The position numbers were made by a program, and so were the translations under genes. The notes beneath the pieces were generated by a model. That model ran no database searches. It was not told the origin of the DNA and worked only from the letters and a program-made list of their open reading frames with translations. From Nocardioides marmorisolisilvae (lineage in GTDB: Bacteria; Actinomycetota; Actinomycetes; Propionibacteriales; Nocardioidaceae), in NCBI RefSeq assembly GCF_003725775.1, contig NZ_RJSG01000002.1, positions 1,839,871 through 1,903,870 of the forward strand: a stretch of DNA of 64,000 bases, in the 5' to 3' direction. Positions 46,312-48,877 of this stretch are shown one piece after another. Position 1 is the first letter of the stretch. Each line of letters begins with the position of its first letter.

Positions 46312-47886
46312 CTAGGCATCGTGGCGGCGCAGGCCGAAGGTCAGACCGTCGATCAGCGCCTCCCACGAGGCCTCGATGACGTTGTGCCCGACGCCCACGG
46401 TCACCCAGGACGACTCCCCGTCCGAGGTCTCGATGAGAACCCGGGTGATCGCGTCGGTGCCGTGGCCCTGGTCGACGATCCGCACCTTGTAGTCGATCAG
46501 CTCGAACTTCACGACCTCGGGGTAGAGCCGCTCGATGGCCTGGCGCAGGGCGTGGTCCAGCGCGTTGACCGGCCCGTTGCCCTCCCCCACCATGACCAGG
46601 CGCTCGCCGCCGGCCATCAGCTTCACGGTCGCCTCAGATCCGGCCTCCGCGTCCGAGGCGGAGTCGGTGATCACCCGCCAGGACTCGATCTCGAAGTACG
46701 ACGGGCGCACGCCTTCCACCTGCTCGGCCAGCAGCAGCTCGAACGAGGCGTCCGCGGCGTCGAAGGTGTAACCGCGCTGCTCCAGCTCCTTGACCCGGGC
46801 CGTGACGCTCGCGATCACCTCGGGACCGAGGTCGAAGCCGAGCTCCTTGCCCTTGAGCTCGATGGAGGCACGACCGGCCATGTCGGAGACGAGCAAGCGC
46901 ATGTCGTTGCCGACGCCCTCCGGCTCCATGTGCTGGTACAGGTTCGGGTCGACCTTGATCGCGCTGGCGTGCAGGCCGGCCTTGTGGGCGAACGCCGAGA
47001 CGCCGACGTACGGCTGGCGCGAGGAGGGCGGCACGTTGGTGACCTCGGCGACCGCGTGCGCGATCCGGGTGGCGTCGCGCAGCAGACCGGCCGGCAGCAC
47101 CTGGCGGTCCAGCTTGAGCTCGAGGTTCGCGACCACGTTGATGAGGTCGGCGTTGCCGGTGCGCTCGCCGTACCCGTTGATGCAGCCCTGCACGTGCGTC
47201 GCGCCTGCGTCGACGGCGGCCAGGCTGTTGGCCACGGCGCACCCGGTGTCGTTGTGGGCGTGGATCCCGATCCGTCCGCCGGTCGTGGAGACGACGTCGT
47301 CGACGACGTCGCTGACCCAGTTCGGGAGCATCCCGCCGTTGGTGTCGCAGAGCGCGGCCACCTCGGCCCCGGCCTCGAACGCGACCCGCAGGACCTCGAG
47401 CGCGTAGTCGCGGTTGTCGCGGTAGCCGTTGAAGAAGTGCTCGGCGTCCAGGAAGACCCGCTGCCCCTCGGCGGTCAGGTGGCTGACGGTGTCGCGCACC
47501 ATCGCCAGGTTCTCCTCCAGGGTCGTCCGCAGCGCGAGCTCGACGTGCCGGTCGTGCGACTTGGCGACCAGGGTGACCACCGGGGCACCGGACTCGCGCA
47601 GCGCCGCCACCAGCGGGTCGTCGGCGGCTTTCATGCCGGCACGACGGGTGGCGCCGAACGCCGCGAGCTGGGCGTTCTGGAGCTTGAGCTCGTCACGCGC
47701 CTTGGCGAAGAACTCGGTGTCCTTCGGGTTCGCCCCCGGCCAGCCGCCCTCGATGAAGCCCACGCCGAGACCGTCGATGTGCCGCGCGATGGCGAGCTTG
47801 TCCGCCACGGAGAGGTTGAGGCCCTCCTGCTGCGCGCCGTCGCGCAGGGTGGTGTCGTAGACGTGGAACGCGTCTGCGGTGCTCAT
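46312..47886 (-). CDS. cimA: Citramalate synthase
   Basis: 524 aa of the alpha-isopropylmalate/homocitrate synthase family. [20 protein letters not shown] at the start holds the catalytic Arg-Asp of the TIM barrel and [17 protein letters not shown] the metal-binding HxH. A C-terminal LeuA-dimer regulatory domain follows (about 370-520). Citramalate synthase condenses pyruvate and acetyl-CoA to feed 2-oxobutyrate into isoleucine synthesis without threonine. That role fits its leader: three consecutive Ile codons and an attenuator lie upstream, so expression probably responds to isoleucyl-tRNA. It converges with the TetR gene. Confidence 0.93.
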
Positions 47887-47920: not shown

Positions 47921-47949
47921 GAAAAAACCTCCCGTTGGGACGAGAGGTT
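47921..47949 (-). terminator. Attenuator terminator of cimA
   Basis: On the minus strand AACCTCTCGT and ACGGGAGGTT form a 10-bp stem (one C-A mismatch) with a 4-nt loop, followed at once by a run of six T. It lies between the leader peptide and the cimA start, 35 bp upstream of the latter. Confidence 0.9.
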
Positions 47950-47950
47950 G

Positions 47951-47975
47951 GCGCGGCGGGGAGGTCCCGTCGCGC
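47951..47975 (-). promoter_or_regulatory. Pause hairpin and antiterminator arm in the cimA leader
   Basis: The minus-strand segment folds as GCGCG-A-CGGG / CCCG-C-CGCGC, a hairpin reaching the leader stop codon. Its central ACCTCCC can alternatively pair with GGGAGGT of the downstream terminator, so the two structures exclude each other as in classical attenuators. Pairing is read by eye. Confidence 0.7.
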
Positions 47976-48022
47976 TAGTGAATGATGATGCTTGCTGCGT
48001 GCACGGTTCGAGTGTGCCACAT
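47975..48022 (-). CDS. cimA leader peptide with Ile-Ile-Ile
   Basis: A 15-codon ORF: MWHTRTVHAASIIIH then TAG. Three consecutive isoleucine codons (ATC ATC ATT, 47989-47981) precede the stop by one codon. The stop abuts the pause hairpin, and the terminator follows. This is the layout of a leader peptide that couples ribosome stalling at scarce Ile-tRNA to readthrough into cimA. No strong Shine-Dalgarno is visible, so translation may begin on a leaderless or near-leaderless message. Confidence 0.8.
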   Translation of the reverse strand: MWHTRTVHAASIIIH

Positions 48023-48052: not shown

Positions 48053-48877
48053 ATGAGACGAGCGCTCGTGCTCGGCGGCGGTGGCGTCACCGGCGTCGCC
48101 TGGGAGCTCGGCATCCTGGCCGGCCTGGCCGAGCAGGGCGTCGACCTGACCGGCGCCGACACCGTGATCGGCACCTCGGCCGGATCCGTCGTCGGCACCC
48201 GGATCACCACCGGCACCCTGGCCCACGCCTACGAGGACCAGCTGCGCCCGCCGGACGGCGAGCTCGCTGCGAAGCTCGGGCCGACGACGTTGATCAAGCT
48301 CGGCGTGATGCTCGCCCGTCCCGGCGAGGAGGCCGCCAAGTGGCGCCGCCTCGGCGCGGCCTCCGCGAAGGCTCACCCCGAGTCCCCGGACGCACGGCGC
48401 GAGGTGATCCGCTCCCGCATCGGCGACCCGGCGTGGCCGGACCGCGACCTGCGGGTGACGGCCGTCGACACCGACCGTGGCGCGTTCGTGGTCTTCGACC
48501 GCGCCTCGGGCGTGAGCCTGCTCGACGCCGTCGCGGCCAGCTGTGCGGTGCCGCTGGTGTGGCCGCCGGTCCCGATCAACGGCACCACGTACGTCGACGG
48601 GGGCATCCGGTCCCCCGCCAACGCCGACCTCGCCGAGGGCTGCGACGTGGTGATCGTGCTGGCTCCCGGGACGCAGGCGCTGTCCCGCGAGCACAGCATC
48701 AGCCGCCAGCTCGCGCGCACCGGGGCGACCCGCACGCTGCTCGTCGCCCCGGACCCCGAGGCGCTGAAGGAGATGGGCTCGAACGTCCTCGATCCGGCGT
48801 ACCGGAAGGCGGCGGCGCTCACCGGCCTGCGCCAAGGGCTGACGCTGGCGTCCGAGGTCGCCGAGATCTGGGGCTAG
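48053..48877 (+). CDS. Patatin-like phospholipase family protein
   Basis: 274 aa. The oxyanion loop GGGGVTG at 8-14, the nucleophile elbow GTSAG near 40, and the Asp of the dyad in DGGIRSPANAD near 181 define the catalytic core of patatin/RssA-type serine hydrolases. Such proteins cleave lipids or lysophospholipids; the substrate is unknown. GGAGG upstream. It is divergent from cimA. Confidence 0.92.
   Translation: MRRALVLGGGGVTGVAWELGILAGLAEQGVDLTGADTVIGTSAGSVVGTRITTGTLAHAYEDQLRPPDGELAAKLGPTTLIKLGVMLARPGEEAAKWRRLGAASAKAHPESPDARREVIRSRIGDPAWPDRDLRVTAVDTDRGAFVVFDRASGVSLLDAVAASCAVPLVWPPVPINGTTYVDGGIRSPANADLAEGCDVVIVLAPGTQALSREHSISRQLARTGATRTLLVAPDPEALKEMGSNVLDPAYRKAAALTGLRQGLTLASEVAEIWG

Follow-up and report, generated by a model that had tools for sequence, protein, structure and literature searches.

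What controls citramalate synthase in Nocardioides marmorisolisilvae, and does this control reveal which amino acid the enzyme serves? The question arises in a 64,000-nucleotide stretch of the genome (the window), where cimA lies on the minus strand (46312..47886) and its product scores 640 bits against the TIGR00977 citramalate synthase profile (cut-off 450). Because TIGR00977 is a relative of LeuA, the substrate of CimA is otherwise inferred from homology. The genome also encodes ilvA, and the nearest relatives of this cimA are those of a Nocardioidaceae MAG (93%) and Nocardioides marmoriginsengisoli (92%). A divergent patatin-like gene sits between ilvE and cimA (48053-48877). The original prediction placed a classical isoleucine-responsive attenuator in front of cimA. 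Our analysis places the probability that cimA is under ribosome-mediated, Ile-responsive transcription attenuation at roughly 0.87, and points to a switch that differs from the classical type.

Read along the minus strand, the element begins with an extended -10 box, TGGCACACT (TGn plus CAnnnT; 48011..48019), a candidate promoter of the leader transcript. Six bases further on, a GTG codon (48004-48002) opens a short ORF, VHAASIIIH-stop (47975..48004). The three Ile codons ATC ATC ATT (47981..47989), the putative sensor, are adjacent as predicted but do not stand directly before the stop, since one His codon (CAC) intervenes. Hairpin 1, GCGCGaCGGG-ACCTC-CCCGcCGCGC (47951..47975), is formed in the predicted fold of the leader, and it begins on the G of the TAG stop codon (47975), so that the described contact between hairpin and stop holds. 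A single base separates it from the intrinsic terminator, a predicted stem-loop with covariation, AACCTCTCGT-CCCA-ACGGGAGGTT (47926..47949), the last two stem bases of which belong to a U-tract of six T (47922..47927). This stem and its six-T run had also been read correctly, and the run ends about 35 bases before the cimA start. With end-product codons in a short ORF and an intrinsic terminator before the structural gene, the element has the sequence features of an attenuator in the general sense.

The start of the leader was placed by comparison with relatives. The 15-codon ORF MWHTRTVHAASIIIH, which had been taken for the leader, is present at 48022-47975 on the minus strand, and is unlikely to be translated from ATG 48022, because its first codons (ATG TGG CAC ACT) overlap the conserved -10 box and starts in the relatives cluster 6-7 nt after that box. 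TGnCAnnnT is present in 127 of the 146 leaders collected here, and an in-frame ATG or GTG follows it at exactly 6 nt (68 leaders) or 7 nt (39 leaders), 107 in total, where about 3 per offset would be expected; out-of-frame starts at these offsets were absent from the 146 leaders. Four Aeromicrobium loci (L070, L078-L080) carry an exact TAnnnT box (TAGACT, TATGCT). Since leaderless starts stand at such a distance of 6-7 nt from their -10 box, we infer a leaderless leader, which in N. marmorisolisilvae is very probably the nine-codon ORF from GTG 48004. Leaderless leaders have been documented for leuS and leuA of Streptomyces lividans (PMC8079986).

Upstream of the -10 motif, some leaders (e.g. 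L035, L020 and L069) carry TGRGACG...CGTCYCA half-sites at about 31 and about 22 bases. The inverted pair occurs in 13 of 127 leaders and is perhaps a repressor operator. An assignment of this conserved upstream box to NdgR was rejected, as the published NdgR motif differs and the NdgR paper does not mention citramalate. TGRGACNNNNGTCYCA is matched at three places in the N. marmorisolisilvae genome.

The distribution of the element was assessed in two slightly overlapping sets, 80 Nocardioidaceae loci plus the window and an even class sample of 88 loci from 31 families, by an automatic rule that required a terminator and a short ORF in which Ile occurs close to the end. By this rule, the element is found upstream of cimA in 76 of the 81 Nocardioidaceae sequences, the window included, and at 70 of the 88 loci of the class sample (26 of 31 families). 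The architecture of the original prediction thus recurs in 146 of 169 cimA upstream regions, and judged from these sequences its presence at the cimA locus is far beyond chance. Two further loci were recognised by eye, L104 and L174; the latter, with a weakened Ile block, is the only terminator-bearing locus that the Ile rule rejected. An Ile run was found in all 145 parsed relatives, with a length of two or three codons in 129. The codon blocks of the cimA leaders comprise 356 Ile, 30 Leu and 28 Val codons, counts mildly biased by the demand for at least one Ile; without the last Ile, which is Ile by definition, 210 Ile codons are left. Outside the class but within the phylum, two cimA genes are also preceded by leaders with four Ile codons and two hairpins (L232, MSASIIIIA; L243, MRNATTAARIIIIR), where the plan is similar, with longer linkers and looser spacing than in the class leaders.

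A covariance model (R1) built from 25 cimA leaders only contains compensatory changes in 10 of its 18 pairs, and both hairpin 1 and the terminator are conserved with such changes. Covariation and retained Ile codons in relatives, which the original prediction had named as a check, are therefore both present. The folding z-score of hairpin 1 across relatives has a median of -3.2. In the 3.83 Mb genome of N. marmorisolisilvae, the model finds one place (70.8 bits, E 3.4e-21), the next having an E of about 0.9, and of 198 class genomes 135 contain a match to it at E <= 1e-4. No Rfam family matched the element at its gathering score, and at E up to 5 the matches were at chance level.

The spacing within the element is rigid. 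Of 145 leaders, 100 have 5 nt between the last Ile codon and hairpin 1 and 125 have 4-6 nt there; in 134, hairpin 1 and the terminator are 0-1 nt apart. The position of the stop codon varies; it is usually a TAG just before hairpin 1, and in several families a TGA within its 5' arm (IIGRRAG-stop). As the stop is variable and the spacings are rigid, it is the distance between sensor codons and hairpin 1, and the direct contact of hairpin 1 with the terminator, that selection keeps. In the 5' arm of the terminator (47940-47949), the letters CCTCTCG are fixed across families, and the 3' arm varies through G-U pairs. This suggests an added constraint on the 5' arm, perhaps a pause site or a factor.

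Where the element is absent from a cimA locus, it is usually absent as one unit. At L035, L043, L096 and L098, the last two in Aeromicrobium-like genomes, the whole element is deleted, and the start codon of cimA is preceded at 7-9 nt by a promoter-like box (e.g. TAGACT), the picture that excision of the attenuator would give. These four deletions are a ready natural control. At L072 the leader, hairpins and T-run are all lost, and at six loci (L122, L124, L135, L163, L168 and L171) there is no leader and cimA directly follows a coding frame with an ilvE-like end, which is a reading of the sequence, not an annotation. In the window the patatin-like gene lies between ilvE and cimA, and in other families cimA apparently stands directly behind ilvE, without a leader. 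In family f18, none of the four cimA genes has the element. Drift of the Ile codons beside an intact terminator was not seen among these losses, save for weakened cases such as L016, L050, L055 and L174.

Moreover, the model built on cimA leaders alone also finds leaders of ilvB, leuS, leuA and ilvA, the codon blocks of which mostly follow the gene. Among 26 ilvB leaders, 13 have 5 nt between codons and hairpin 1 and 20 have a linker of 0-1 nt; their codon block is composed of 42 Leu, 42 Val and 14 Ile, against the strong Ile excess at cimA. One such ilvB leader, MRFEILVRTRRVS, is present in the N. marmorisolisilvae genome. LLL blocks on the same scaffold mark leuS leaders (L280-L287 and L291; LLLTEPR-stop and similar), and L328 is probably another; at L280 and L284, NCBIfam confirms that the gene is leuS. 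Leu codons are found in the leuA leaders of family f11 (L290, MTNLLLT; L330, MKHLLLIESARH), whereas for leuA of other Actinobacteria a LEU element has been described. In family f18, Ile leaders precede ilvA, encoding threonine ammonia-lyase (L292, L293 and L321-L325), with peptides such as ...MIISWAREPA (L293), VPQHLMIIN (L325) and VTVHEMAIT (L292); some of these have a single Ile codon (MAIT, MGIT), which counts against the Ile-responsive reading. A second Ile leader on the scaffold occurs in family f20 (L326, MFALVIIM; L327, MFTPRIII), and that of L327 lies upstream of a small ORF resembling an ACT-domain acetolactate synthase small subunit.

The Ile leader of f18 stands on ilvA where cimA lacks the element, so it appears that either entry to 2-ketobutyrate can carry the Ile switch, and this supports the isoleucine role of CimA that had been proposed. 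The codon choice at the other genes, Leu, Val and Ile at ilvB and Leu at leuS, points the same way. Since most families have the Ile leader at cimA and f18 has it at ilvA, the switch would track the step that commits to isoleucine. We suggest, tentatively and with more doubt than confidence, that one ancient codon-programmable scaffold serves the branched-chain pathway (Ile at cimA and ilvA, Leu, Val and Ile at ilvB, Leu at leuA and leuS), its antiterminator blocking by adjacency, with no shared bases. If true, attenuation would here work sterically, without overlap between antiterminator and terminator.

Could the Ile codons instead be incidental, in a translated short ORF without regulatory function ahead of a constitutive terminator? 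A codon substitution in the Streptomyces coelicolor ilvB leader that reportedly had no effect, as cited in PMC1262725, speaks for such a reading and against attenuation by Ile. However, the Ile codons are fixed in place across families, the leuS, leuA and ilvB leaders have matching codons, and the element is lost as a unit, which together make incidental codons very improbable. In Mycobacterium tuberculosis, the change of LVVI to AAAA in the ilvB1 leader abolishes induction (PMC13236596). The retention of Ile codons and terminator across at least 26 families thus supports the Ile-dependent attenuation of the original prediction, and cimA is very probably made only when isoleucine runs short in most actinomycete families examined.

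How the ribosome would control the terminator is a separate matter. The original prediction had assumed mutually exclusive folds of the classical type through pairing of ACCTCCC in hairpin 1 with GGGAGGT of the terminator, and had proposed to fold the leader in the two states. In such a trp/ilv-type switch, stalling would free ACCTCCC to pair with GGGAGGT or with the terminator 5' arm, and the competing base pairs would prevent the terminator. Both segments are indeed present; their duplex in N. marmorisolisilvae has a predicted energy of -14.8 kcal/mol including flanking stem bases, in 28 of 145 relatives loop and terminator pair at -5 kcal/mol or better, and an antiterminator of this kind has been proposed for the Corynebacterium ilvB-II motif (PMC10272879). 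However, the pairing is not conserved: a loop paired with the terminator 3' arm of its own species gave -3.53 against -3.26 for arms swapped between species, and -7.82 against -7.81 with flanking bases. In addition, classical sensor codons lie inside the 5' arm of hairpin 1, and here the Ile codons end upstream of it.

Folding in the presence of a ribosome, represented by a mask on the RNA that reached 13 nt from the codon in the A site, showed that hairpin 1 responds to ribosome position. Its median probability was 0.99 in free RNA and 0.99, 0.79 and 0.46 with the ribosome stalled two, one and zero codons before the last Ile, respectively; for a ribosome at the stop it was 0.00. In full-length equilibrium folding the terminator formed in every ribosome state, and hairpin 1 and terminator can coexist. 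Since the Escherichia coli trp leader likewise kept its terminator in all states, such folding is uninformative on the terminator; it was rejected as a test of antitermination, and its hairpin 1 probabilities alone were used.

In a second test, folding was carried only up to the terminator loop, and the upstream pairing of the terminator 5' arm was read out. The E. coli trp leader, the sequence identity of which was checked, behaved as a positive control, with values of 0.09 free, 0.63 stalled at Trp and 0.06 at the stop. The medians for the cimA leaders were 0.29 free, 0.16 at the first Ile, 0.32 at the last Ile and 0.34 at the stop. With a rise of 0.3 over both the free and the stop state taken as sequestration on stalling, none of the 146 leaders showed it at the first Ile and two did at the last Ile, and the 26 ilvB leaders behaved in the same way. 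The two-state folding thus bears out the response of hairpin 1 and not the sequestration of the terminator: the test detects the trp-type switch in E. coli and finds it, at the first Ile, in none of the cimA leaders. No conserved loop:terminator or region-3 antiterminator was detectable in the cimA leaders, and a switch of the classical type is accordingly improbable here.

Hairpin 1 is the only structure that tracked ribosome position in these foldings, and it is also the element that we propose as the antiterminator. The extended -10 promoter would start a leaderless transcript at GTG 48004, and a ribosome would translate VHAASIIIH. When charged tRNA-Ile is ample, the ribosome would reach the TAG. 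Hairpin 1, its 5' arm covered by the leading edge of the ribosome, would then be unable to form as RNA polymerase transcribes the adjoining terminator, and transcription would end before cimA. When charged tRNA-Ile is scarce, the ribosome would stall on the Ile codons, just short of hairpin 1; the free hairpin would then fold directly beside the foot of the terminator stem, on its 5' side, and hinder the stem from being completed, allowing cimA to be read. The completed hairpin may clash with RNA polymerase as the terminator stem closes at the exit channel. We infer the sign of this regulation, and with it the mutual exclusion of hairpin 1 and terminator, from the logic of the pathway: more cimA would be needed when isoleucine is short, so hairpin 1 must oppose the terminator. 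That it does so through abutment falls a little short of even odds. The published model for M. tuberculosis ilvB1 similarly has a hairpin that forms on stalling and is masked by the ribosome at the stop (PMC13236596).

Alternatively, hairpin 1 could be a pause or synchronising hairpin, with readthrough on stalling arising from lost ribosome-polymerase coupling or from NusA/NusG action and not from a sterically blocked terminator. The fixed spacing would fit a pause hairpin as well, and the CCTCTCG letters kept in the terminator 5' arm could mean a sequence-specific pause. However, this explanation leaves the 0-1 nt abutment of hairpin 1 and terminator unaccounted for; we consider it unlikely, yet deserving of more weight than the classical switch.

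Our findings provide a regulatory ground, testable in sequence, for assigning actinomycete CimA to isoleucine synthesis, and suggest that the entry to isoleucine through pyruvate and citramalate is probably gated by isoleucine supply across much of the class. Leaders that occur in nature with different codons on a single scaffold, combined with rigid spacing in the apparent lack of a base-pairing antiterminator, make the mechanism of the actinobacterial branched-chain attenuators directly testable.

Attenuators of this pathway have been described before in Actinobacteria. Seliverstov et al. (2005) reported leaders of ilvB, leuS and trp as well as the LEU element of leuA, and called the ilvB mode unclear (PMC1262725), Narunsky et al. 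(2023) described the Corynebacterium ilvB-II motif (PMC10272879), and an RNA-seq survey of S. lividans listed eight leaders, none at cimA (PMC8079986). In the open-licence literature we found no earlier report of a cimA attenuator or leader peptide.

Enterobacterial trp, ilv and leu attenuators share with the cimA element the end-product codons, a hairpin near the stop and an intrinsic terminator, but the cimA element has no detectable 2:3 antiterminator, its sensor codons lie upstream of hairpin 1 and its leader is probably leaderless. The Corynebacterium ilvB-II motif also combines a uORF with two hairpins, the second being a terminator. Its uORF covers most of hairpin P1, whereas that of cimA mostly ends at hairpin 1, and the loop:terminator-arm pairing proposed there is not conserved in cimA leaders. 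The Streptomyces leuS attenuators (leuL2) have in common with cimA a hairpin, a U-stretch and a leader that is leaderless, at cimA probably so, but they carry Leu codons in place of Ile and are described upstream of leuS only. The likeness to the actinobacterial ilvB attenuators (Seliverstov et al. 2005; S. lividans ilvL; M. tuberculosis ilvB1NC) extends to the order of parts and to nearly the same spacing, with the codons some 5 nt ahead of hairpin 1 and an abutting terminator. The S. lividans ilvL peptide MRTRILVLGKRVG (PMC8079986 Table 4) forms the C-terminal end of the leader in three loci of our ilvB set. The two differ in that the cimA codons are almost only Ile, and in that the stop is usually a TAG before hairpin 1 at cimA and a TGA inside it at ilvB. 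The sequence comparison therefore strongly supports an attenuator of the known actinobacterial branched-chain type, now at cimA.
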